Positions 11,247 through 63,348 of a stretch of 64,000 nucleotides of DNA are shown piece by piece. Made by a program: the position numbers and the translations under genes. The notes below the pieces were generated by a model. That model saw only the letters and a program-made list of their open reading frames with translations. It was not told the DNA's origin and made no database searches. The stretch lies in assembly GCA_016782865.1 (NCBI GenBank), contig JADHXR010000011.1, positions 1 through 64,000 on the forward strand. The letters run 5' to 3'. This stretch comes from Phycisphaerae bacterium. GTDB lineage: Bacteria; Planctomycetota; Phycisphaerae; Sedimentisphaerales; Anaerobacaceae. Each line of letters starts with the position of its first letter. The first letter of the stretch is position 1.

Positions 11247-13322
11247 TCAAAAGATAATCTGCTTGGCGATCTGATCGGGAACTTTCTCATAATTCAATGG
11301 CTCCATAGTGAAGGTTCCCCTGCCCGCCGTCACACTTCTGATTTCACTCGAATACCCGAACGTTTCGATCAAGGGCGCCTTGGCATCGAATACCTGCATG
11401 TTCCCATGCGCGCGACAACTCGTAATCACCCCTCTTTTTGCAAGGAGGTTACCCTGAACCGCCCCGAAATTGGCCAGCGGAACCACTACCTGGAGGCGCA
11501 TGACTGGCTCGAGCAGAACTGGTTCGGCCTCTGCGACTGCTTTTTCCAAGGCCCTCGAGCCGGCCTGCTCAAAAGCCAGGCCCGATGAATCGACAGAATG
11601 AAATGACCCGTCAATTAACGTAACTTTAACTCCAACAACAGGATAACCCGCCAATGCGCCACTGCCTAAGGCGTCTCTGCATCCTCTTTCCACGTCAGGG
11701 ACGTACTCCCTGGGAACCGCATCGGCCCCAGCGGTATTCTCGAATTCCACCCCCGTGGTCCAATGGCCGTCCTCGGTCAACAGCGGCTCGATACGTAGAA
11801 CAACGTGACCGTACTGACCGTGACCACCTGTCTGCCGCACGAATTTGCCCTCGGCTTGAACTGTCTTCGTGATGGCTTCCCTGTAAGCGACCCGTGGCTT
11901 GCCAACCCTGACGTTCACCCCTTTTTCTCGTATCAGCTTGTGCTGCAGCACCTCCAGGTGCAATTCGCCCATTCCGCTGATGATAGTCTGGCCCGTTTCG
12001 GGGTCCGTTCTGCATTCAAAGGTCGGATCCTCACGTCTCAAGTCGGCCAGTGCATCACCCAGCTTTGCCTTTTCGGCGCTGGTTCTCGGCTCGATGGACA
12101 TATTCATGACCGTCTGGGGAAATGTAATACTTGGCAGACAGACTGGCTTCTTCGGATCGCAGATCGTATCGCCCGTAAGTGTCTGTTTGAGGCCAACGAC
12201 TGCGACAATATCGCCGGCGCCGGCAGCGTCCAGGACCTTTCGCTCGTTGGCATGCATCTCGAATATCCTGGTGATGTTCTCGCGTCGGTTGCGATTGACA
12301 TTCAAGACTCTGCTGCCTGATTTCAGGCTGCCCTGATAGATTCTCAGAAAACTCAAATCGCCGTGCACATCGCTGGTGATCTTAAATGCAAGCGCCACCA
12401 TGCTGCCGTTATGGTCACACTCAATGGATATTGTCTTGTTTGGGTCCCCAGGCTTGTGCCCGGTCAGGACATTTCTGTCCAATGGCGAGGGCAAATACGC
12501 AACGACGCCATCCAGCAGCCTCTGTACGCCGATGTATTTCAGGGCCGAGCCAACAAACAACGGATGGAGCTTGCCGCTCAAAGTCCCCTTTCTAATCGCC
12601 CCGGTAATCATCTCAACATCGACCGGCTTGTCGTGGACATAGTTGTCCATTAGCTCGGCATCGTGCTCGGCGGCAAGCTCGATCATCTCGTTTCTGTGCT
12701 GGCGGGCGATTTCCTGCATTTCCGCGGGGATTTCAGTTTCTTCAAATGTGGCCCCCATTTTCTCGGTCTTATAGAAAACCGCCTGCATCTTTATCAGGTC
12801 GATCACCCCGGCGAAAGAATCCCCGGCGCCGATGGGCAGCTGCAGCAAAATAGGATTGGCCAGGAGTTTGCCGCGGATGCTATCGACGGTCATCTCAAAA
12901 TCGGCACCGGTCTTGTCCATCTTGTTGACAAAGCATAGACAGGGCAGATCGTACTTTTGCCCCTGTCGCCAGACGGTTTCACTCTGCGCCTGCACGCCCT
13001 CGCTGCCGTCAAACACCGCCACCGCGCCGTCGAGGACCCGCAACGATCTTTCGACCTCGGCGGTAAAGTCGATATGTCCGGGCGTATCGATCAGATTGAT
13101 CCCAAAACCTTTCCACGGGCATTTGGTCGCCGCTGAAGTGATAGTAATACCTCTCTTCTGCTCCTCCTCCATGAAGTCCATTACCGCGGTGCCGTTGTGA
13201 ACCTCCCCCATCTTGTAGGTTTTACCCGTGTAGTAGAGTACGCGCTCTGTGACCGTTGTCTTGCCGGCATCGATGTGAGCCATGATTCCGATATTGCGCA
13301 GTTTTTCCAAATCGCTTGACAT
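11247..13322 (-). CDS. fusA: Elongation factor G
   Basis: EF-G is the GTPase that drives translocation and, with RRF, ribosome recycling. The G motifs are clear: AHIDAGKTT (G1), RGITI (G2), DTPGH (G3) and NKMD (G4), followed by the tRNA-mimic domains. The ATG at 13322 ([18 protein letters not shown]) is chosen over a TTG eight codons upstream and is preceded by GAGAG. Length is 691 residues, as expected. It lies between rpsG and rpsJ, but an intrinsic terminator follows rpsG, so it probably has its own promoter. Confidence 0.96.
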
Positions 13323-13369
13323 TGTTAGTCTCTCACATAAGGGCAAACCGATATCATTGCCCCAGGCAG

Positions 13370-13398
13370 ACTTTACAGGCCTGCCCCCTGCACGGCAA
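13370..13398 (-). promoter_or_regulatory. Weak promoter candidate for fusA
   Basis: TTGCCG (13393-13398), a 17-nt spacer and TAAAGT (13370-13375) point toward fusA from just beyond the rpsG terminator. Both boxes match the sigma70 consensus only partly. The location is the main argument, because something must restart transcription after the terminator. Confidence 0.25.
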
Positions 13399-13406
13399 CA
13401 CTACAT

Positions 13407-13448
13407 AAAAAAACTGCCACGGTCAGTTTCATAAACGCACCGTGGCAG
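13407..13448 (-). terminator. Intrinsic terminator after rpsG
   Basis: On the minus strand CTGCCACGGT (13439-13448) pairs perfectly with ACCGTGGCAG (13414-13423) across a 15-nt loop. Seven T follow directly (13407-13413). This is a textbook rho-independent terminator, 17 nt past the rpsG stop. It splits the usual rpsL-rpsG-fusA transcript or attenuates it. Confidence 0.78.
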
Positions 13449-13464
13449 ATTAAAGAAACAACGT

Positions 13465-13938
13465 TTACCAGGCGAAGTGGGCAAACGCCTTATTCGCCTC
13501 AGCCATCCTGTGGATATTTTCCCGCGTGGTCATTGCGCCGCCGCGTTCGTTGTAGGCGTCCATCAACTCGGAGGCAAGACGCTCGCACATCGGTTTGCCC
13601 TTCTTGGATCTGGCCGAGGTCAGTATCCACCTGAAGGCAAGTGACTGTTGGCGCTTGGCGCTGACCTGCATCGGAACCTGATAACTGGCTCCGCCGACAC
13701 GCTTGCTCCGAACCTCAATCATCGGTTTTGCGTTGTTAATCGCCTTCTCGAACACTTCAAGAGGCCCAGCGTCCTTTAGGTTCTTCTCCATGATGTCCAT
13801 CGCATCGTTGAAGACCCGCTGTGCAGTGCTCTTCTTGCCGTCCCACATCAGGCAGTTGATGAATTTCGAAACCAGCCTGCTGTTGTACTTCGGGTCCGGC
13901 TTTAACTGTTGACTTGAAGCGGTGAACTTTTTTGCCAT
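13465..13938 (-). CDS. rpsG: Ribosomal protein S7 (uS7)
   Basis: S7 starts assembly of the 30S head and contacts the E-site tRNA. The start [20 protein letters not shown] at 13938 has GAGG 7 nt upstream; the longer frame lacks this. [23 protein letters not shown] is the family signature and [16 protein letters not shown] follows. Length is 157 residues. It lies 70 nt after rpsL and is followed by a strong terminator. Confidence 0.95.
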
Positions 13939-14008
13939 TGTTTTCCTCAATCTGGCAGTCGGCAACTGGCGAGCAATCACCCATTTAGCCGGCTACCCTA
14001 TAACCGAT

Positions 14009-14380
14009 TCACTTTGCTTTCTTCGCACCGTATTTGCTTCTGCCCTGCTTTCGATTGGCCACTCCGGCACAGTCGAGAACACCACGGACAATATGATACC
14101 GCACACCAGGAAGGTCTCTGACTCGACCTCCCCGGATGATGACCGTGCTGTGTTCCTGGAGATTATGGTCAATCCCGGGTATGTAAGCTGTAACTTCTTT
14201 ACCGTTGGTCAGTCTGACACGGGCGATTTTCCGCAAGGCTGAATTCGGCTTCTTCGGCGTCTGAGTTCTTACAATAAGACAAACACCTCGCTTTTGCGGC
14301 GAACCGCTGATGTCCGATACGCGTTTGCGACCCTTCGACTTCGCCCGCGGGCGCCTTACCAACTGGTTTATTGTGGGCAT
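14009..14380 (-). CDS. rpsL: Ribosomal protein S12 (uS12) with Arg88
   Basis: S12 sits at the decoding centre and governs accuracy. The ATG at 14380 ([20 protein letters not shown]) is canonical. The product is 123 residues and keeps [11 protein letters not shown] with Lys43. The loop at 84-96 reads [13 protein letters not shown], so position 88 is Arg where E. coli has Lys. In E. coli and mycobacteria K88R is a known streptomycin-resistance change. Here it is the native sequence, so low streptomycin sensitivity is inferred only. Confidence 0.96.
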
Positions 14381-14447
14381 AATGCTCGTAATCCCTGATT
14401 CTAACATATTGACACGTCCTGTTCGACCATCGACAGGATAACCCATT

Positions 14448-40356: not shown

Positions 40357-40450
40357 CGTTTTAACGCGTCGTTTATGTTCTCATGCGTTCGTTGCTTCCG
40401 TCGTTCTTTGCGGGTGTTGTACGTGAGGAAATTTGTAGCGGGAAATGCCG

Positions 40451-42994
40451 ATGAGCGAAGCCGAGGAACAAAACAACAAGCGTTCTAATGGTAAAGGAAC
40501 GGGGTCGACCGGGTCTTTTGACAGCTCAGCGTTGGGACCGGGCGGCCAGATTGGTCCGTTCCGGATTGAGCAGGAGCTTGGCCGGGGGGCTATGGGTGTA
40601 GTCTATTTAGCCCATGACTCAAAGCTCGACCGGTCGGTCGCGATCAAGAGCCTGCCGGCGGAGTTGCTGGAGAATACCACAGCCCGGACGCGGTTCGGGC
40701 GCGAGGGACGCGTTCTGGCATCTTTGAATCATCCGAACATAGCTACAATCTATGAGGAGCTTCTAGAGGCCGAGGGCGTTGGCTATCTTGTCCTCGAATA
40801 CGTTCCCGGCCAGACCTTAGCCGAGCGGATCGCGGGCAAAAGGCTCAAACCGCAAGAGGCATTGTTAATTGCTCAGCAGATAGCAGAAGCGGTTTCCGCA
40901 GCGCACGAGCACGATGTAGTCCACCGCGACCTCAAGCCCGGCAATATCAAGATCACACCAGAAGGCAGAATAAAGGTGCTTGACTTCGGCTTGGCCAAGG
41001 CTCTTGGCCACAGGGCGCCGGATCAGCAGCAGAGCACTGTCACGCTACCTGGCCGCATCGTGGGCACTCCGGCTTATATGAGTCCGGAACAGGCCCGCGG
41101 TCTGGAGACCGATGAGCGCTGCGACATCTGGTCCTTCGGCTGCGTACTGTACGAGATGCTAACCGGCAAAGTCCCCTTCGAGGGCAAGACGGTTTCAGAC
41201 ACACTGGCCGGCATTCTGGATCGCGAGCCGGACTGGCACGCCCTGCCCCAGGCCACGCCGGCAAACATTCACGTCCTGCTGCGACGCTGTCTGGAAAAGG
41301 ACACGCGCCGGCGGCTTCACGACATTGCAGACGCCGTGATTGAAATCAGTGAAACGCTGTCCGGCGCCTTGGAACAGTTTGCCCTGTCGGGCGAAGTTGC
41401 TCCAGTCCCTCGATTTTTGCGACGTGACGTCATTCTTGTCGCTTTGGCGGGTTTGATTGCTGGGTTACTTATTGCCGGTGTTATTTGCTGGTTTCTTCCT
41501 CCGCCCAGTCCTCCGAGTGTCTTGCGGCTGCCGTTAAAGGTGCCGGCAGAACTTTACTCAGGAGCTGCCCCGAACTATTTTGTGGCTATCTCGCCTGACA
41601 GCACCCGCATCGTCTGCGTTGGAGAATTGGATGACGGAGACCCTCAGCTCTATATCTGGTCGCAGGATGACCCTCGATACAAGCCAATTCCCGGTACCAG
41701 AAACGCCCACAATCCGTTCTTCTCACCCAATAGCCAGTGGATAGGATTCTTCGCGGACAAGCAATTGAAGAAAGTTTCCGTTGACGGAAGGGAGCCTCAG
41801 ACACTGCACAAAGACATTGTAGGGGATAGTTTTGCGTTCGGGAGCTGGGCCGACGACGGGACCATAGTCTTCAGCGACAAGGACGGTAGCCGCGGTCTCT
41901 GGCAAATATCAGTGGATACGGGTCAAGCCAAATCGCTGGTAGTACCGAATTCTGAAAACGCCGAAGCCTACTATTGCTACCCGCAGGTCTTGCCTGGAGA
42001 CAAGGCAATCCTTTATTCCCGCGTCGATCCCAACGGCTCGTGCATTTGGGTATATCTGCCGAAGACCCGCAAGTCGCAGCTTGTACTCGAAGATGCTTCT
42101 TACGCCAGGTACGTCAGCTCGGGTCACCTGATCTTCGTCCGAGACAAGGTTCTGATGGTGGCACCATTCGATCTTGGGCAACTCAAGCCCGGCCGCGGGG
42201 TCCGTCTTGTCAATGACAAGGTGGAATTCGACCATACCGAAGAGACTCCACAGATCGCAATTTCTGATAATGGAACCACCGTATATGTCTCAGACTGTGA
42301 GCTTGACAAAAGAGAATTGGTCTGGGTAGATCGTCAGGGTGGCACACCCGAGCCCTTAGGCGCCCCTGCTGACGTTTATGAGGCACCTTGCTTGTCACCT
42401 AATGGGCGCCAAATAGCCGTAGGGATCAGGTCGCAAACAGAAACAGATCGCAATATCCGAGTTCACGTCTATGATATTCCGCTTGGTACGCGTATGCCTC
42501 TTACGACGGAGGGTAGCGGTTACCCACAGTGGTCGCCGAATGAAACACAGATTGCCTTTTGGGGTTGGGAACCCGGGAGCCAGGGAAAGGGTGTGTTTCG
42601 CAAGAGCTTGGGCGATGCCGATCCAAACCAACTGGCCAGTGAGCCTCCCTCTGGAGTTTACCTGCACCCTTATTCGTGGTCGCAGAATCTCCTAGCCTGT
42701 ACAGCGAAGGATCCCAACACCCAGGAGGATATTTGGGTCGTCTACACCGATGTCAAACAGGAACCGAAGCGTATCCTCTACACAGAGCACAGGGAATACA
42801 ATCCGGCTTTCTCGCCTGACGGTCGCTTGCTTGCTTACGTTTTGGAGAAGGAGTCGGGTCAACCGCAGATATATCTTCGGGAATATCCCGGTGCTGGTCC
42901 AGGGCGGCCGGTCCCAACCCGTGGGGCTGGGGCAACAAACCCGGTTTGGTCGCGTAATGGCAAGAACTGTATTACATCAGTGGCAACAGTATGA
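40451..42994 (+). CDS. Ser/Thr protein kinase with PD40 propeller, frameshifted near the end
   Basis: This is a Hanks-type kinase anchored in the membrane with an extracytoplasmic sensor. The kinase domain (about residues 35-300) shows GAMGVVYLAHD, Lys in VAIKSL, HRDLKPGNIKI and DFGLAK, followed by GTPAYMSPEQARG. A TM segment lies near 325-345 (VILVALAGLIAGLLIAGVIC). The C-terminal part carries PD40/TolB-like repeats (FSPNSQWIGFFADKQLKKVS, FSPDGRLLAYVLE). The ATG at 40451 with GGGA upstream is preferred over 40445. A single G seems missing after 42964. Restoring it gives NGKELYYISG and joins the frame to the segment ending at 43230. It is a close paralog of the kinase at 51436 but lacks that protein's N-terminal domain. 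Confidence 0.88.
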   Translation: MSEAEEQNNKRSNGKGTGSTGSFDSSALGPGGQIGPFRIEQELGRGAMGVVYLAHDSKLDRSVAIKSLPAELLENTTARTRFGREGRVLASLNHPNIATIYEELLEAEGVGYLVLEYVPGQTLAERIAGKRLKPQEALLIAQQIAEAVSAAHEHDVVHRDLKPGNIKITPEGRIKVLDFGLAKALGHRAPDQQQSTVTLPGRIVGTPAYMSPEQARGLETDERCDIWSFGCVLYEMLTGKVPFEGKTVSDTLAGILDREPDWHALPQATPANIHVLLRRCLEKDTRRRLHDIADAVIEISETLSGALEQFALSGEVAPVPRFLRRDVILVALAGLIAGLLIAGVICWFLPPPSPPSVLRLPLKVPAELYSGAAPNYFVAISPDSTRIVCVGELDDGDPQLYIWSQDDPRYKPIPGTRNAHNPFFSPNSQWIGFFADKQLKKVSVDGREPQTLHKDIVGDSFAFGSWADDGTIVFSDKDGSRGLWQISVDTGQAKSLVVPNSENAEAYYCYPQVLPGDKAILYSRVDPNGSCIWVYLPKTRKSQLVLEDASYARYVSSGHLIFVRDKVLMVAPFDLGQLKPGRGVRLVNDKVEFDHTEETPQIAISDNGTTVYVSDCELDKRELVWVDRQGGTPEPLGAPADVYEAPCLSPNGRQIAVGIRSQTETDRNIRVHVYDIPLGTRMPLTTEGSGYPQWSPNETQIAFWGWEPGSQGKGVFRKSLGDADPNQLASEPPSGVYLHPYSWSQNLLACTAKDPNTQEDIWVVYTDVKQEPKRILYTEHREYNPAFSPDGRLLAYVLEKESGQPQIYLREYPGAGPGRPVPTRGAGATNPVWSRNGKNCITSVATV

Positions 42995-43230
42995 TGGCCG
43001 TGAAGCTTACTCCGGAGTCGGATTTTCCCGTAGGAGCGCCTGTACGACTATTCAAATTGCCTGACGAGATAGATTCACGTAGCACGCGACTCGTGAGAAC
43101 CTACGATGTTTCCGATGATGGGCGATTTCTGATGTTGAAACGGAGCGAAGGCAAAGAGGATCTGTTGATTTTCGTGCAGAACTGGTTTGAGGAGTTGAAG
43201 GAGCTCGCGCCATTAGGAAAAGATAAATGA
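42965..43230 (+). pseudogene. Out-of-frame C-terminal end of kinase 1
   Basis: After a one-base deletion near 42964 the last 88 or so codons of the propeller continue in another frame: ELYYISGNSMMAVKLTPESD to the end FEELKELAPLGKDK. The final residues match the end of the paralog (WSEELKRLAPPRKE), which proves that this is the lost C-terminus and not a new gene. An ATG at 42991 could only start a 79-residue fragment. A sequencing error is the main alternative. Confidence 0.8.
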
Positions 43231-43368: not shown

Positions 43369-43464
43369 ATGAAATCGCAAACCAAGGGGGCCAGGAACAG
43401 GATCAGAGGGCCAGATGACGTGCGGATGTCCGTTAGCACAAGCAGATGTTTCTTCTCAAATTGA
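43369..43464 (+). CDS. 31-residue small protein with strong ribosome site
   Basis: AAGGAGATACC precedes the ATG at 43369 with ideal spacing, one of the best ribosome sites in the window. The frame encodes 31 residues: MKSQTKGARNRIRG, then PDDVRMSVSTSRCFFSN. It is basic, has one Cys near the end and no hydrophobic segment. It lies 34 nt before the 110-residue gene that precedes a radical SAM enzyme, so it may be a leader peptide or a second modified peptide of that locus. No family was recognised. Confidence 0.4.
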   Translation: MKSQTKGARNRIRGPDDVRMSVSTSRCFFSN

Positions 43465-43494
43465 TTCCTTAACAATTACTACCAGAGGTGAACA

Positions 43495-43827
43495 ATGGGA
43501 AAAAAGCGAGCAAAAAAAAAGAAACCAAATCCAGTGCATGAAAAATTCGCGAAAGAACTAGATAAGTGGGCAGGGAAGGACAAGGAGCGGGAGACCCTCG
43601 TGAAGTGGCTCTTGACCCGCACCGTGTCGCACCACTTCGAAGGTACCGGGGGCAAATTTATAATTAAGAGAACAGATATCAACGATTTCGACATAAAGAA
43701 GGCTGTGATGCATGCAATGGCAGACTGCAAGTCTAACCCTGGGATGTCCACGACCGGCTCGACACGAGGTGGTCCTACGTGGCCGAAGGCGTACGCACCC
43801 GGCTGGATGAAAGCGTACGGTTGTTAG
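43495..43827 (+). CDS. Putative RiPP precursor, 110 residues, with Trp-X-Lys-Ala-Tyr repeats
   Basis: AGAGGTG precedes the ATG. The protein starts with a very basic MGKKRAKKKKPNPVHEKFAK, has a helical middle, and ends in a glycine- and aromatic-rich tail: Cys78, then STTGSTRGGPTWPKAYAPGW and MKAYGC. The tail repeats WPKAY and WMKAY, 8 residues apart, and ends with Cys110. It lies 44 nt before a radical SAM/SPASM-glycosyltransferase gene on the same strand. Small size, a conserved-looking leader and a patterned tail next to a peptide-modifying enzyme are the grounds for calling a precursor. Trp-X-Lys is a known kind of site for radical SAM aromatic crosslinking. No homolog was recognised and the role is inferred. 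Confidence 0.6.
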   Translation: MGKKRAKKKKPNPVHEKFAKELDKWAGKDKERETLVKWLLTRTVSHHFEGTGGKFIIKRTDINDFDIKKAVMHAMADCKSNPGMSTTGSTRGGPTWPKAYAPGWMKAYGC

Positions 43828-43871
43828 CAGCGGACGTGACCTACGGAAGATTGTAGCAAACTGGTGTTGAC

Positions 43872-46544
43872 GTGTGTAGCAAGTTACGAGCGAGAAGTTG
43901 CCATAGTGAGCAGGACATGCGCCGCCTCGCAGAGAGTCTGAGCGAGTATGCACTCACACTGCCAGAACGCAAGAAACACGCTCTCTGCGAAATGCTGCTG
44001 CGGGCAATGGAGCCGTTGGATCGCTTTCTTTGCCTCAGGACATCGGATTTTCTAAGCGGCGATGAAGAAGCGGTCCTCCATTCGCTGGAGAAGAGATCGA
44101 AAAGAGGCCAGCATCCTGCGCTGGCCGATTTATCGCTGATAGTCAAAGCAACGCGGCAGTGCACGCTGCGATGCGCATACTGCAATGACTGGCGCAGCAG
44201 CCGCAAGGAGGTCATGAGCTTTGGCGTGATGGCACGCATGATTGCCAGCGCATTGGCTGAGCATGAGCACGTACGCTTCATCTGGCACGGGGGAGAGCCC
44301 ACACTGCTGCCGATCTCCTTTTATGAGAAGGCCCTGCTAGTGCAAGCGCGCCTGCGGCGAGAGGGACAGAAGGTTGGAAACACCTTTCAGACCAACGCTA
44401 CAACACTGACACCGGCGTGGGCGCGCTTCTTCCGGGCGAATAACATCCAGGTGGGGATAAGTATTGACGGACCTGCACATCTGCACAACAGCCACCGCAG
44501 CTACCGCTCTGGCAAAGGCAGTTACGACCATGTGATTCAGGGATTGAACCTCCTGAAGGAGTACGAAGTCCAATTCTCAGGCCTGGTTGTCGTGGATGAA
44601 GGGACGCTCAAGTTCGGAGCCCGGAGACTCCTCGATTTTCTGGTAGGACAAGGCATTCGCAGTTTCGGGGTACTTCCCGCCAAGCCGAAGAACGAACCAG
44701 CGGCTGAAGCCGGAACCATAACTGAGCACTACATCGAGCCTGCAAGGGTAAATGCGTTCCTGATAAAGCTTTACGATGCGTGGCTCAGTCGCGGCGACCG
44801 GAACGTGAAGATTCGAGAACTGGAGGCGTTAAAGGCGCAGATTAAAGGTGTATCAGCCCGCTCCTGTACGCTAAGCGGAAAATGTTGGGGCCACTATTAC
44901 GCGATCGAGGCGGACGGCAGCGTGGCGGTATGTGATGTGTTCTCGGGCGACAGCCGATACACCCTTGGCAACATCATGAACACCAGTTTCGCAAAGATTG
45001 CCAACAGCTCAGCACTGCTCCAGTTGAAAAAGGAGCACCGCAACACCACCGAAGCAATGAGGGGGTGTCCAGAGTTTCCCGTATGCAAAGGCTGGTGCCC
45101 CCACGAGCGGTATGTCTCGATCCGGCACAACAAATCGCACCGCGACGGTTGCTGCGGACTGCGGGACCTGATCGCTCATATCCGCAATCGGATGGCCGAT
45201 GAGCCCAGGATGTCTTCACAGCAAAAGCTCATCCGCAGGAAGAGTCGGCGGAGATCGGAGGTAGAAGCAACTCACCGGGTCTTGCTCGGGCCAAAGATCG
45301 ATTTGCACGTCGGCGTGCATAATGCATTTGCCAAGCTACTTGACCCGTCCTTCCAGTACAGCAAGAGAGATTCTGTGCACACATTCGTAATGGCCGATGA
45401 GCAGCACGAGTCGCCATTCCGTTTCTTCCACTGGGGTGAGTTTGCTGACTTCGGGCCTGGCCGGGCAATTGTCCACGCGGCGCGGTGGCCGGTTTTGAAT
45501 CGCAAAGCGTGGGTGACAGACACGGATGATTTCGTCTATCCTGTTGTGTGCGGGCGCCACTTTCTGAGTCCTGACTTTAGAAGCGCATTTCGTGGAGAAT
45601 GGTCGACGGAATTTCACGAGAACATGCTCAAGAGAGCAACGAACATGCTGACAGCATACGCCCATCCGAGCTGCAAAGCGATTTTCTGCCGCAGCGAGTC
45701 CACAGTCCGCGATGCCCGCGTATGGTTGGACAAACTTGACGTCGGAGAGCTTGGGCAAAAGTACCTGTCGAAGATCCAGGTACTCTATCCCGCGCAAGAA
45801 AGCTGTTCGTCAGATGTGATGGAGGCAAAGTGGAGCAAGAGCGGACCGCTTACAGTAGTGTTCTGCGGAAGAGACTATGAGAGCAAGAATGGAAGAATGG
45901 CCCTGGAGATATTTGACCGCTTATCACGTGAGTTCGCAACAGACCGATTCGTGTATATAGGAAATGTTCCGCAAGAGGAACTGCGGAGGCGCCGCAGACT
46001 ACCAACCTCTGTGGTGCATCACCAGTCACTTTCACACAAGCAGACCCTGTCGATTCTGAGGGCGGGGCATATCCTCTTTCATCCTTCAAAGTTCGAGGGA
46101 CTGGGCATCGTCTTTTTGGAGGCGGCGGCTTCCGGAATGGCCGTGATCACGGCGACCGGTGGTCCCATGCGGCACGTCGAGGAGCTGTTTGGCACAGGTG
46201 GCGCAATGCTGGTCGACCGGGGCAATATTAAGCAGTCCCAGGAGGCTTGTGCCTTCGAGACTCACCTGCGGTACATCCTGAGCAATCCAGGCGCGGCGAA
46301 AAGCATGGCCTACCACAACTTCAACCTGGCGACCGTCGGAAAGCTCTCGCCCGAACGAAGCCGCAGAATCCTGCTGAAGGTGTACGAAGATGCGCTGGAA
46401 AGACCAGCGGAAGCCCCGCTGACCCTCGGGCAAATTCCGTGCAGTGACGGGGCACTGTTACGGTTAAGCAGCCCTCAACTGGAGCAGGAGCGACTAGACT
46501 ACCGCCGAGCGGCTCATATTACCCAGGTGAACTTCCTTCTCTGA
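43872..46544 (+). CDS. Radical SAM/SPASM peptide maturase fused to a GT4 glycosyltransferase
   Basis: The N-terminal half is a radical SAM enzyme: Cys97-x3-Cys101-x2-Cys104 (CTLRCAYC) for the SAM cluster and WHGGEPTLL at 138-146, the motif of anSME-like maturases. A SPASM region for auxiliary clusters holds Cys332, 338, 354, 399, 405, 409, 427 and 428, including YYAIEADGSVAVCDVFSG and FPVCKGWCPHERY. From about residue 465 a GT-B, family 4-like glycosyltransferase follows, with LTVVFCGRDYESKNG and the donor-binding motif FEGLGIVFLEAAASG (Glu742-x7-Glu750). The basic linker QKLIRRKSRRRSE joins the halves. The start is GTG at 43872 or ATG at 43917. The architecture suggests that one protein both crosslinks or oxidises and glycosylates a peptide, most likely the 110-residue product upstream. 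Length is 890 residues. Confidence 0.85.
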   Translation: MCSKLRARSCHSEQDMRRLAESLSEYALTLPERKKHALCEMLLRAMEPLDRFLCLRTSDFLSGDEEAVLHSLEKRSKRGQHPALADLSLIVKATRQCTLRCAYCNDWRSSRKEVMSFGVMARMIASALAEHEHVRFIWHGGEPTLLPISFYEKALLVQARLRREGQKVGNTFQTNATTLTPAWARFFRANNIQVGISIDGPAHLHNSHRSYRSGKGSYDHVIQGLNLLKEYEVQFSGLVVVDEGTLKFGARRLLDFLVGQGIRSFGVLPAKPKNEPAAEAGTITEHYIEPARVNAFLIKLYDAWLSRGDRNVKIRELEALKAQIKGVSARSCTLSGKCWGHYYAIEADGSVAVCDVFSGDSRYTLGNIMNTSFAKIANSSALLQLKKEHRNTTEAMRGCPEFPVCKGWCPHERYVSIRHNKSHRDGCCGLRDLIAHIRNRMADEPRMSSQQKLIRRKSRRRSEVEATHRVLLGPKIDLHVGVHNAFAKLLDPSFQYSKRDSVHTFVMADEQHESPFRFFHWGEFADFGPGRAIVHAARWPVLNRKAWVTDTDDFVYPVVCGRHFLSPDFRSAFRGEWSTEFHENMLKRATNMLTAYAHPSCKAIFCRSESTVRDARVWLDKLDVGELGQKYLSKIQVLYPAQESCSSDVMEAKWSKSGPLTVVFCGRDYESKNGRMALEIFDRLSREFATDRFVYIGNVPQEELRRRRRLPTSVVHHQSLSHKQTLSILRAGHILFHPSKFEGLGIVFLEAAASGMAVITATGGPMRHVEELFGTGGAMLVDRGNIKQSQEACAFETHLRYILSNPGAAKSMAYHNFNLATVGKLSPERSRRILLKVYEDALERPAEAPLTLGQIPCSDGALLRLSSPQLEQERLDYRRAAHITQVNFLL

Positions 46545-46723
46545 GAGTACTCCTGGTCGGCTTGAGAGCCAAGCTCCGCTGCGATACTACCAGACACATT
46601 CGCTCCCTGACGATGCAATCTGACACTGTCTTGTACGTTCACAAATCATTTGGGATGAGGTCGTCATATGCTTCCGGGGCTTCCGGGCGCAGCTAATATC
46701 TAAGTTGTAAGTGAAGCTCAGAT

Positions 46724-47458
46724 TCATGAATATGCACGTGCGAGAATCTTACTTCTATGCTCTTTCAGCGCTTTGTTCTTGCTGGCAAATCCGTTGGCTA
46801 TGGCATGCGCGCATAGACTGTCTTGTCCCCAGGCGTAGGGTAGCGCTTTCGGCCCGCTGAAATCCTCTTTGTGTTTCTCTTTACTATAGGGAATAACACT
46901 GATGCTGACGTTGTCTTTGAGTTTGGCCGATATCCAGATGTCCTCGCTGTATGTAAAGTCTCTCTTCGGAAATGGAAAGACGTCAGGCTCAAAATAGTCC
47001 CGTCTGAAGATTGCCGTATCGACACCGTTATAAATGTGGCATAAGACGGGTTCTGAGATTTCCCCCGCGAATACAGTCTCACTATTTGGATAATGTAAAA
47101 CGGCTGCGGGCTTCCAAATTCGACCTCTGCCGCATACCACGTGTCCGGGCAATCTGTCACTCCAGAACAGCAAATTTTCAAACCAACCTCTCGGGAATAC
47201 CGTGTCATCATCCGCCACGATATACCGGTTGATTCCTAGATCCATGTAAAGTGGACCGTGCTTCTTGAATGCACCATAGTCCTTTGACCTGACGATCCGT
47301 ATACCGCTATTCTCAATGAATGTTGGTAATTCAAGCTCGTAGGCTACAACAAGCAAGACTCGATCGGCGGGCCATTGGTCCAGCAATGATTGGAGCATTG
47401 GTGCGATCTTATTCACTCTTGGTTCGTGAGTTGTGAATGAAACGTATGTATCCTGCAT
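46724..47458 (-). CDS. GT-A type glycosyltransferase
   Basis: The protein shows a metal-binding DxD motif, Asp83-Asp84-Asp85 in RYIVADDDTVFPRGWFENL, and a probable catalytic-loop acidic pair in FTYSEDIWISAKLKDN, both usual in GT-A folds. The N-terminus MQDTYVSFTTHEPRVNKIAP begins the nucleotide-binding fold. Length is 244 residues, with no TM segment. It is convergent with the radical SAM-GT fusion, 179 nt away, and may add a further sugar to the same product or serve surface glycan synthesis. Donor and acceptor are unknown. Confidence 0.7.
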   Translation of the reverse strand: MQDTYVSFTTHEPRVNKIAPMLQSLLDQWPADRVLLVVAYELELPTFIENSGIRIVRSKDYGAFKKHGPLYMDLGINRYIVADDDTVFPRGWFENLLFWSDRLPGHVVCGRGRIWKPAAVLHYPNSETVFAGEISEPVLCHIYNGVDTAIFRRDYFEPDVFPFPKRDFTYSEDIWISAKLKDNVSISVIPYSKEKHKEDFSGPKALPYAWGQDSLCAHAIANGFASKNKALKEHRSKILARAYS

Positions 47459-60787: not shown

Positions 60788-60985
60788 ATGCACGCGAAAT
60801 ATACTCCTGATAGTCAAATGTCCGTTTCTAACTGTAGTACAACCTCTGTCTCAAAAACAGAGGTGGAGAAATTCAGAAGACGGATGCTCGAATGGCCCAA
60901 TCCCGTAGAGTTCGTGAATAACATGTATGGTTGTCATCCAGATGATGGCGGCCGCAAATACTTTGAGAAGGTCTTTTCTGAATGA
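60788..60985 (+). CDS. 65-residue protein coupled to a radical SAM gene, possible peptide precursor
   Basis: AAAGGAT lies 5 nt before the ATG, and the stop overlaps the next start as ATGA, so translation is coupled to the radical SAM enzyme. The sequence MHAKYTPDSQMSVSNCSTTS is polar. The second half (KFRRRMLEWPNPVEFVNNMY then GCHPDDGGRKYFEKVFSE) is charged with Cys49. There is no TM segment. Small size and coupling suggest a RiPP precursor or a small partner subunit of the enzyme. No family was recognised, so both remain inference. Confidence 0.6.
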   Translation: MHAKYTPDSQMSVSNCSTTSVSKTEVEKFRRRMLEWPNPVEFVNNMYGCHPDDGGRKYFEKVFSE

Positions 60986-62103
60986 AGACAGACACTGATT
61001 TAGATTTGCTTTTTGACCGATGGAAAGAGCGTATCGAAAGGCTTATACGAGAACATCCGCTGCAAATAATCAGTTGGGAGGCGACACGCCGGTGTAATAT
61101 GAATTGTGTTCACTGCGGCTCACCTTCTGAAAATGTAAATCTTGATGAAGAGCTAACTACTGACGAAGTTGTAAGTGCGTTCGATCAGATAGCAACCGAT
61201 TTCGATATGAGCCGGTTTAGACACATAAATATTACCGGTGGTGAACCCTTTGTTAGAAAAGACCTGCTAGAAATCCTTTCGCGAATTAGCCGCTCTCCAT
61301 TCTATCGCAATATAGACATACAGACGAATGGTCTTATTCTTTACGATAATCCCGAACTTTTTGACTGCCTGAAACGATATGGTGTCACTGGTCTTGGAAT
61401 CAGTATAGACGGGTTGGAAACAACCCACGATTCGTTTAGGCGAATACGAGGAAGTTTTTCGAAAGCATTCGAGGCAGCCAAGATTGCTGTGGAGAATGGT
61501 TACATTACAACAATCTCCACAGTGGCACATTCCAATAATGTAGTTGAGCTTCCGGAACTTTTCAATCTTGTCAGAGCTAAGATCCAACCCAGAGTTTTCA
61601 GGGTAATGACTATCGATCCTATTGGCAGAGCAGAATTTGACTCAGAGTATCTGCTTTCTGCTGAGGATGTGAGAAGTGTCATTGAGTTTTTGAGGGCAGA
61701 ATATCAAGACTCGTGTGGCAATTATGCTGACCCCTCGACTACAATGGTTGAGCTTGGTTGTGGTGGATGGCTGGGCAGAGAACTCGAAGGTATCTGCAGG
61801 CCGTTGATTTTTCATTGCATAGCAGGCATTACAAACCTTGGTATCCTATTTGACGGTAAGATTGCCTCATGCAGCAATGTACCGAGGGACTTCATCGAGG
61901 GTGACTTACGAATAGACCGAATTAGGACTGTTTGGGAAGCCCGATACCATAGGTATAGAAATTTTGAGTGGAGGAGAGTAGGTCCTTGTGCAGTTTGTGA
62001 CGAGTGGGATTATTGTCATGGTGGACCCATGCATAACAGACGAGCTGACGACAGAATCAGCCACTGCCTTTTTCATGGTGCGCTCGCACGAAGGGATCCG
62101 TGA
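60982..62103 (+). CDS. Radical SAM/SPASM-like enzyme
   Basis: The SAM cluster motif is Cys38-x3-Cys42-x2-Cys45 (ATRRCNMNCVHCGSP), followed by NITGGEPFVRKDLLEILSRI and DIQTNGLILYDN, typical of PqqE/AhbD-type enzymes. The C-terminal half carries further cysteines for auxiliary clusters: ELGCGGWLGRELEGICRP, FHCIAGITNLGILFDGKIAS then CSNVPRDF, and GPCAVCDEWDYCHGGPMHN. Length is 373 residues. It overlaps the stop of a 65-residue gene by 4 nt and lies inside a Liv-type transporter operon. Likely roles are peptide modification or cofactor synthesis. The substrate is unknown. Confidence 0.88.
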   Translation: MKTDTDLDLLFDRWKERIERLIREHPLQIISWEATRRCNMNCVHCGSPSENVNLDEELTTDEVVSAFDQIATDFDMSRFRHINITGGEPFVRKDLLEILSRISRSPFYRNIDIQTNGLILYDNPELFDCLKRYGVTGLGISIDGLETTHDSFRRIRGSFSKAFEAAKIAVENGYITTISTVAHSNNVVELPELFNLVRAKIQPRVFRVMTIDPIGRAEFDSEYLLSAEDVRSVIEFLRAEYQDSCGNYADPSTTMVELGCGGWLGRELEGICRPLIFHCIAGITNLGILFDGKIASCSNVPRDFIEGDLRIDRIRTVWEARYHRYRNFEWRRVGPCAVCDEWDYCHGGPMHNRRADDRISHCLFHGALARRDP

Positions 62104-62133: not shown

Positions 62134-63348
62134 ATGTTAGACTGGTTTGAACAATCTCAGCGATATCACAAGATGATGCAGGAGATTACGAACAATGAGT
62201 TTCAGCTACTTAAGAAGAACAACATTTGGAAGACTGTTCTTATAACCCTCTCAGTGGGAATAGCGGTCAATTTCCTGTATGGGATGTTGTCGAGTGATCC
62301 ATCTAAGGCTCAGAGAGGGTTCATCCTGGCAATTGGCAGTGCTGCTGGTGCTGCTGGTATCAGCATGTTCGTTGCGGATTTTTCCCTGATAAAGATGATA
62401 GGGAAATGCAATGAGGCAAATAGGTTCGGTACAGAATTGCAGTTTCCCATGCGTGTTGAAAGCACTCTAGGCCCACTTCTCTTTTATGTGAAGAACGGTA
62501 ATTTCGAGAAAACACTTTCGTGGTTTGGAGATATCCAATCACTCTCAATCAAGATCTTGTTGTCAAAGATCATCTATTTTCAGCTACAACAGTCTTTTGG
62601 AGAAGAAGTTATCCGTATTCACGTCGGTAATTACGCCGATCATTCAAATGTGCTCAAGGACCTCCTAACTGGTATATCCAATGCCTGTTTTACGTGTATC
62701 ACGAGCCCTCGACGTTGGTTCAAGGATCTTGATGGCAGAAATGTACAGCATGAAATGCTACCAGAATCTTTTGGCGAGGTTGAATACAAAGCAGATCAGC
62801 TACACGGGATCTCAGCGATTAACAAAGAAAAATTCCCGAGTCATTATGTTCGTTTTCTTGAGAAGTCATCGGATACGGCTGAGCGTCGGCGCGCTTTCTT
62901 TCTAGATCAAACAGAATGGGTAGAGCTTACCGATGAGGTTAATCTGGAGTTCTATAAAAAATTCATGGGACCCTGTAAAACTGTAGGGATTAAAACGCGA
63001 TTTGTCAACCTTGTTGAATTGGAGGCTGCCTACGCTACGCTTCCAAATCCAGAACGTACAAGAGTAGCCAAAGCGATCCAGGGTAACATAACACAGCGAG
63101 ATTATGACATTTTCGACAAAGCCGCGGTTATGGTGTTCAAAGACATCGGAGCAATTACTGATGAGGAATCCAGCCTTTACGGAAGTGGGCCGTACTTGGA
63201 GTTTTCTTTGGGAAGGAGAGTCGCCGAATATACTGATTTCTTGGATGAAGTCTTTTCCGGAAAACTAGATAGTTCATTTGGAGTTTATACGCCAGAAGAG
63301 ATCGAGGCGGACTATCTGAAAATGTCGTCTACTTCGAACTGCGAATAG
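62134..63348 (+). CDS. Unrecognised membrane protein with two N-terminal TM helices
   Basis: AAGGAGG precedes the ATG. Two hydrophobic helices lie near residues 33-52 (WKTVLITLSVGIAVNFLYGM) and 63-83 (FILAIGSAAGAAGISMFVAD). They are followed by about 310 soluble residues with mixed alpha/beta content (IHVGNYADHSNVLKDLLTGI, ITSPRRWFKDLDGRN, YGSGPYLEFSLGRRVAEYTD). No known motif was recognised. Length is 404 residues. It lies 30 nt after the radical SAM gene and 3 nt before livH, so it belongs to the operon and may act with the enzyme or the transporter. A signalling or regulatory domain facing the cytoplasm is possible. Confidence 0.65.
   Translation: MLDWFEQSQRYHKMMQEITNNEFQLLKKNNIWKTVLITLSVGIAVNFLYGMLSSDPSKAQRGFILAIGSAAGAAGISMFVADFSLIKMIGKCNEANRFGTELQFPMRVESTLGPLLFYVKNGNFEKTLSWFGDIQSLSIKILLSKIIYFQLQQSFGEEVIRIHVGNYADHSNVLKDLLTGISNACFTCITSPRRWFKDLDGRNVQHEMLPESFGEVEYKADQLHGISAINKEKFPSHYVRFLEKSSDTAERRRAFFLDQTEWVELTDEVNLEFYKKFMGPCKTVGIKTRFVNLVELEAAYATLPNPERTRVAKAIQGNITQRDYDIFDKAAVMVFKDIGAITDEESSLYGSGPYLEFSLGRRVAEYTDFLDEVFSGKLDSSFGVYTPEEIEADYLKMSSTSNCE

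Follow-up and report, generated by a model that had tools for sequence, protein, structure and literature searches.

The window analysed here comprises 64,000 nucleotides of an uncultured Phycisphaerae bacterium (positions 1 to 64,000 of contig JADHXR010000011.1, assembly GCA_016782865.1). It contains an open reading frame (ORF) for a 110-aa protein (43495-43827, +) that is followed, after a gap of 44 nt, by an ORF for an 890-aa protein (43872-46544, +). The initial annotation had described this pair as a small protein next to a radical SAM/SPASM-GT4 fusion, and both ORFs, the gap, and the domains were found as claimed. The start coordinate that it gave for the region, 43369, is the start of a separate 31-aa ORF (43369-43464, +; MKSQTKGARNRIRGPDDVRMSVSTSRCFFSN), which lies upstream of the precursor gene and has a strong ribosome-binding site (AAGAAGGAGATACC). 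The features of the locus are as follows.

43484-43491, +, ribosome-binding-site-like sequence AGAGGTGA, preceding the ATG of the precursor gene
43495-43827, +, putative precursor protein, 110 aa; homologous proteins of 110 and 111 aa occupy the equivalent position in loci L033 and L032
43531-43629, +, leader segment, residues 13-45, including FAKELDKWAGKDKERETLVKWLLTRT, with the conserved pattern F-A-x-[KE]-x3-W
43768-43824, +, candidate core at the C-terminus (residues 92-110, GGPTWPKAYAPGWMKAYGC), containing the two W-x-K motifs listed next
43780-43788 and 43804-43812, +, W-x-K motifs of the core candidate, W96-P-K98 and W104-M-K106
43872-46544, +, fused maturase (N-domain, radical SAM/SPASM, and GT4), 890 aa, GTG start, start codon uncertain
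43905-44099, +, N-terminal helical domain, residues ~12-76, a separate 78-aa ORF in Cupriavidus
44127-44846, +, radical SAM core, residues 86-325, with CTLRCAYC at 44160-44183
44847-45206, +, SPASM region, residues 326-445, with eight Cys
45207-45272, +, linker, residues 446-467, dN/dS 0.61
45273-46541, +, GT4 (GT-B type) domain, with E-x7-E at 46095-46121 and a G-R-x4-K-x-G motif
46724-47458, -, GT-A-like ORF, 244 aa, with no family match above threshold and without counterpart at the related loci

In the 890-aa protein, the Pfam models Radical_SAM (residues 93-241, 60 bits), SPASM (residues 340-400, 34 bits), and Glycos_transf_1 (residues 656-813, 52.2 bits) all scored above their cut-offs of 29.5, 21.5, and 26.4 bits (gathering cut-off), respectively. 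The radical SAM motifs CTLRCAYC and HGGEP are both present, the E-x7-E of the GT4 domain spans residues 742-750, and the SPASM region, for which at least eight cysteines had been noted, has eight (residues 332, 338, 354, 399, 405, 409, 427, and 428). The earlier description as a two-domain fusion holds for the radical SAM and GT4 parts in one chain but overlooked a third, N-terminal helical domain. Predicted structures, based on two-sequence alignments, were too poor for use (mean pLDDT 40 for the GT4 domain, 38 for the N-domain plus radical SAM).

A GT-A enzyme with a DDD motif had been reported to converge on the fusion. The 244-aa ORF does carry this motif and lies on the minus strand, but it matches GT2 only below threshold (Pfam, E 0.094) and has no relatives at the related loci; we therefore rejected it as a cassette partner, and the gene is probably a bystander. 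In another genome (G041), the GT4 part likewise faces a convergent ORF (L029:6801-7751, +), which is weakly GT-like (Glyco_trans_1_2, below cut-off); the two converging ORFs encode different proteins, and the parallel is perhaps a coincidence.

The neighbours scanned encode a kinase with a TolB-like propeller, a thioesterase, a DUF2007 protein, and an M14 carboxypeptidase. No DarBCD-type or other exporter was found among them, none of the genes beside the cassette could be recognised as encoding a transporter, a leader protease, or an immunity protein, and no link of the M14 carboxypeptidase to the cassette was found. The Ser/Thr kinase gene (40445-43230, +) looks frameshifted, as its end seems to continue in another frame (42991-43230); a DNA match to its C-terminal part adjoins the related fusion in CP070806.1 in inverted orientation (L028 12270-12707). 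Elsewhere in the window, a second radical SAM/SPASM gene (60982-62103, +; closest model TIGR04133, 230 bits against a cut-off of 425) is followed by a 404-aa ORF without family match (62134-63348).

Related cassettes in other genomes

A full-length copy of the fusion, 83% identical over residues 3-890, is encoded in the independent MAG CP070806.1 (Phycisphaerales bacterium; G019, L007, L031), which establishes that the fusion is real and no assembly artefact. In a third genome, G041, the GT4 part is 75% identical and interrupted by an assembly gap. Between the window and CP070806.1, dN/dS is 0.18 for the radical SAM core, 0.16 for SPASM, 0.61 for the linker, and 0.13 and 0.23 for the N- and C-half of the GT; both halves of the fusion are thus under purifying selection, as two constrained domains with a loose tether between them. 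The homologous stretch that the window shares with each of the two other Phycisphaerae loci begins at assembly gaps and stops no more than 11 nt past the stop codon, hence the surroundings of the cassette differ between genomes. The gap in CP070806.1, immediately ahead of its position 1523518, covers the region upstream of the fusion, where the precursor would lie, and a precursor-profile search in G019 and G041 gave only chance-level matches (E 0.5-0.7).

The same parts occur as separate genes on plasmid p1 of the soil bacterium Cupriavidus sp. KK10 (NZ_CP073678.1), detected by tblastn against plasmids with 36.7% identity over 86% of the query. Four consecutive ORFs (locus L033) follow the order of the window cassette:

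11401-11733, 110-aa small protein, start assigned in this analysis
11775-12011, 78-aa protein matching the N-terminal domain of the fusion (residues ~12-76)
12016-13143, radical SAM/SPASM protein, from ORF reading
13153-14412, GT4 protein, from ORF reading

In shuffle tests, window and Cupriavidus proteins matched with z values of 202 for the radical SAM part and 57 for the GT4 part. The Cupriavidus radical SAM/SPASM and GT4 ORFs share one frame with a stop codon and 9 nt between them, so that little separates the fused from the adjacent arrangement. A chance pairing of the parts is hard to uphold given this arrangement, and the GT4, with a specific homologue following the radical SAM gene in Cupriavidus, is by its sequence a part of the system. 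Two ORFs of 104 and 80 aa directly 5' of the Cupriavidus precursor gene (L033:10698-11264, +) have no above-cut-off family match and could belong to that cassette.

A third arrangement was found in a groundwater planctomycete (JACQVV010000541.1; G197, L027, L032), which encodes a small protein of 111 aa, the N-domain as an ORF of its own (72-77 aa), and a radical SAM protein that is ~45% identical to that of the window; no GT4 was found on this 3.4-kb contig. Next to this system without a GT, the other strand carries an ORF truncated where the contig ends (L027:2-1435, +), which looks like a further radical SAM protein with a CHCTFC-type motif and is possibly a second peptide maturase.

Among 161 genomes from the order, the cassette is present in three, that of the window included. 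A sample of 397 genomes of the class yielded no further GT4 relatives at E<=1e-25, and the phylum sample contributed the groundwater planctomycete only. A scan of genome contigs with the fusion alone gave no match, and one with alignment A1 recovered only CP070806.1 and JACQVV010000541.1. The search of viral contigs yielded no match, and tblastn against phages yielded sulfatase-maturase-like matches only. In these searches the fusion as such turned up in a few Phycisphaerae only, and its parts are separate in Cupriavidus. The cassette is rare, real, cross-phylum, and RiPP-like, with all enzyme parts fused in this lineage.

The small protein as a probable precursor and the kinship of the radical SAM enzyme

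The small proteins of the window, Cupriavidus, and the groundwater planctomycete have 110, 110, and 111 aa. In shuffle tests, the Cupriavidus and groundwater proteins matched with z 14.6 (0 of 1000 shuffles as good) and the window and groundwater proteins with z 5.9 (1 of 1000), while the window and Cupriavidus proteins gave z 2.7 (21 of 1000), a weak match taken alone. Judged by these alignments, the three proteins form one family. They have in common a leader with the pattern F-A-x-[KE]-x3-W, a second helix-like segment behind it, and a Trp-containing tail. At all three loci the maturase gene is accompanied by an ORF for a small protein of this family with a leader and a core, the arrangement by which a RiPP precursor is recognised. 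In plasmids, tblastn with the window precursor gave no match, and with the Cupriavidus precursor it returned the query itself and two chance-level Rhodococcus matches only.

All four tail Trp residues of the two GT-bearing loci stand in a W-x-K/R context (WPK and WMK in the window, WVR and WEK in Cupriavidus), whereas none of their leader Trp residues does. The tail Trp residues of the groundwater protein do not share this context and stand in W-Y-Q and W-H-A. The role of the small protein as a substrate had initially been deduced from position, size, and tail pattern; homologous small proteins upstream of related radical SAM genes in Cupriavidus and the groundwater planctomycete now lend it the weight of homology, and the small protein is quite probably the substrate of the radical SAM enzyme.

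The leader profile resembles that of the enzyme N-domain: hhalign gave a score of 25.2 with a probability of 48%, against 18.4 for the best of 200 column shuffles and 8.3 for the reversed control, although amphipathic helices may inflate such scores. Pairing of the N-domain with the leader would be a simple explanation. No RRE was reported by the Pfam and NCBIfam searches. The similarity of leader and N-domain hints that the leader is recognised in a way that differs from the usual RRE. Heterodimer-like pairing would also suit an accessory or chaperone that partners the N-domain and is itself no substrate. Such a role is improbable in our judgement, because tail Trp residues occur in all three small proteins, the leader-core layout is typical, and pairing of leader and N-domain would serve leader recognition equally well.

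The highest-scoring NCBIfam models for the window radical SAM part were DarW (NF041300, 301 bits), DarE (NF038005, 248 bits), and anSME (237.6 bits), all below their cut-offs (650 bits for DarW and DarE, 349.45 bits for anSME), and the Cupriavidus enzyme ranked them in the same order. In a maximum-likelihood tree, the four radical SAM proteins of the cassette and Vibrio DarE form a clade (support 99/95) apart from 12 sulfatase-maturase-type sequences. DarE is a single row on a long branch in this tree, and 'DarE-like' is accordingly a safer label than 'DarE'. The radical SAM part does stay below the DarE and DarW cut-offs but is a relative of the daropeptide maturases and not a free-standing new kind. 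Among distant rows of the tree, radical SAM genes on Rhizobium and Rhodococcus plasmids (L045, L049) adjoin a gene whose annotation is HEXXH-motif peptide-modification protein.

The closest solved structure is the anaerobic sulfatase maturase 4k37 (E 4e-39), which together with the anSME match of 238 bits could point to a formylglycine-forming enzyme beside an incidental small ORF. The window enzyme shares the fold family of these maturases but belongs to a separate clade with DarE, scores higher with DarW and DarE and below the anSME cut-off of 349, has no sulfatase gene among the adjacent genes scanned, and is accompanied by a precursor-like gene whose family is homologous across three loci. 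We therefore rejected this identity as barely credible.

Daropeptides offer the closest comparison: their maturases are the best-scoring families, Vibrio DarE falls into the same clade, and the W-x-K/R motif is shared. Daropeptide precursors have a W-x-W/F site for the ether in a core of the form WNWx(K/R)xF or WT(F/Y)RF. The window tail (TWPKAYAPGWMKAYGC) lacks W-x-W and W-x-F, and the radical SAM part stays far below the 650-bit cut-offs; a canonical daropeptide cluster was rejected on these grounds. Further differences are the 110-aa precursor with its own leader family, the lack of a recognised DarBCD-type exporter beside the window cassette, the extra N-domain, and the fused or adjacent GT4. 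The cyclophane-forming maturases GrrM, AmcB, FxsB, YhhB, and XyeB are likewise SPASM-type peptide maturases and match at lower scores, well under their cut-offs, and these models have no glycosyltransferase.

A proposed route to a crosslinked and glycosylated peptide

We lean towards a RiPP cassette in which the 110-aa precursor would receive DarE-like Trp-Lys cyclophanes at WPK and WMK and the tethered GT4 would glycosylate the same core. The N-terminal helical leader of the precursor would recruit the maturase, and the C-terminal tail would be the core. At W-P-K and W-M-K, the radical SAM/SPASM part would take a hydrogen atom off the side chain of Lys and link that carbon to the indole ring of the nearby Trp. 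Because the tail has no W-x-W, two separate three-residue Trp-Lys cyclophanes are the natural prediction, with an expected change of -4 Da in all. The GT4 would use a nucleotide sugar as donor and a residue of the core as acceptor, for which Thr, Tyr, and Cys are candidates.

DarE forms a C-C bond from Trp to Lys or Arg at W-x-K/R as well as the W-x-W ether (PMC9055067). The relationship with DarE and the conserved W-x-K motif together argue for crosslinks at W-x-K, and Trp-Lys crosslinks in the tail are fairly likely, even if scores of 301 and 248 bits against a cut-off of 650 do not allow this chemistry to be transferred with certainty. The same RiPP system, GT4 glycosylation included, could instead rely on a different radical SAM step, such as an ether, a thioether, epimerisation, or oxidation at Tyr or Cys. 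Scores below the DarE and DarW cut-offs, the groundwater tail without W-x-K, and the finding that DarE itself can yield ethers or mere hydroxylation depending on the substrate (PMC9055067) would fit such a step, but W-x-K/R at all four tail Trp residues of the two GT-bearing systems and the position of DarE in the tree make it unlikely. Our search of the literature found no paper on DarW.

The E-x7-E motif is kept in the GT4 of the window, CP070806.1, and Cupriavidus, and G-R-x4-K-x-G in those of the window and Cupriavidus. A PDB search with the GT half returned no significant relative, and the closest NCBIfam matches are weak and mixed, all below 32 bits. Lipids and polysaccharides are common acceptors of GT4 enzymes, and the GT4 might thus serve a cell-surface polysaccharide, a lipid, or a small carrier, with the radical SAM part modifying the small protein and the fusion reflecting co-regulation only. 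The mixed matches and the groundwater locus, at which a radical SAM gene and precursor gene were detected and a GT4 was not, would agree with this. It is nevertheless distinctly unlikely, since the same specific GT4 follows the radical SAM in two phyla, as an in-frame neighbour in one and as a fusion in the other, and has no free-standing relative at E<=1e-25 in the 397 class genomes. From fusion, adjacency, and rarity we infer that the GT4 likely glycosylates the peptide that the radical SAM part modifies. The case is weaker than that for the W-x-K crosslinks where it concerns the action of the GT4 on the peptide, the sequence of the steps, and the removal of the leader and export, and our grading of the substrate, the Trp-Lys crosslinks, and the GT4 acceptor is a judgement and not a computed value.

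No literature was found that joins GT4, radical SAM, and a precursor peptide in a relevant way, and glycosylation is rare among RiPPs (PMC10373908). Like the glycocin enzymes SunS, ThuS, PalS, and similar ones, the window GT4 would, if the inference holds, be a glycosyltransferase dedicated to a ribosomal peptide. SunS and ThuS have a GT-A fold (PMC10373908), whereas the window enzyme is a GT-B-type GT4 that shares its chain with a radical SAM enzyme, for which reason a glycocin system was rejected.

The best reading is that of a rare relative of daropeptide and cyclophane systems with a dedicated GT4 and, in this lineage, a fusion of all enzyme parts. DarE-type enzymes make darobactin, an antibiotic active on Gram-negative bacteria. 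More tentatively, and with less confidence than in the proposed route, it is a fair possibility that one polypeptide crosslinks and glycosylates one ribosomal peptide and thereby defines a class of glycosylated cyclophane RiPPs in which a leader-related hairpin of the enzyme recognises the leader. The system is minimal and testable, with two genes here and four in Cupriavidus sp. KK10, for which a complete plasmid sequence is available. If the proposed reading is true, peptide glycosylation by the GT4 would rely on a fold distinct from that of SunS and ThuS, and one natural chain would show how a single enzyme makes glycosylated, stapled peptides.
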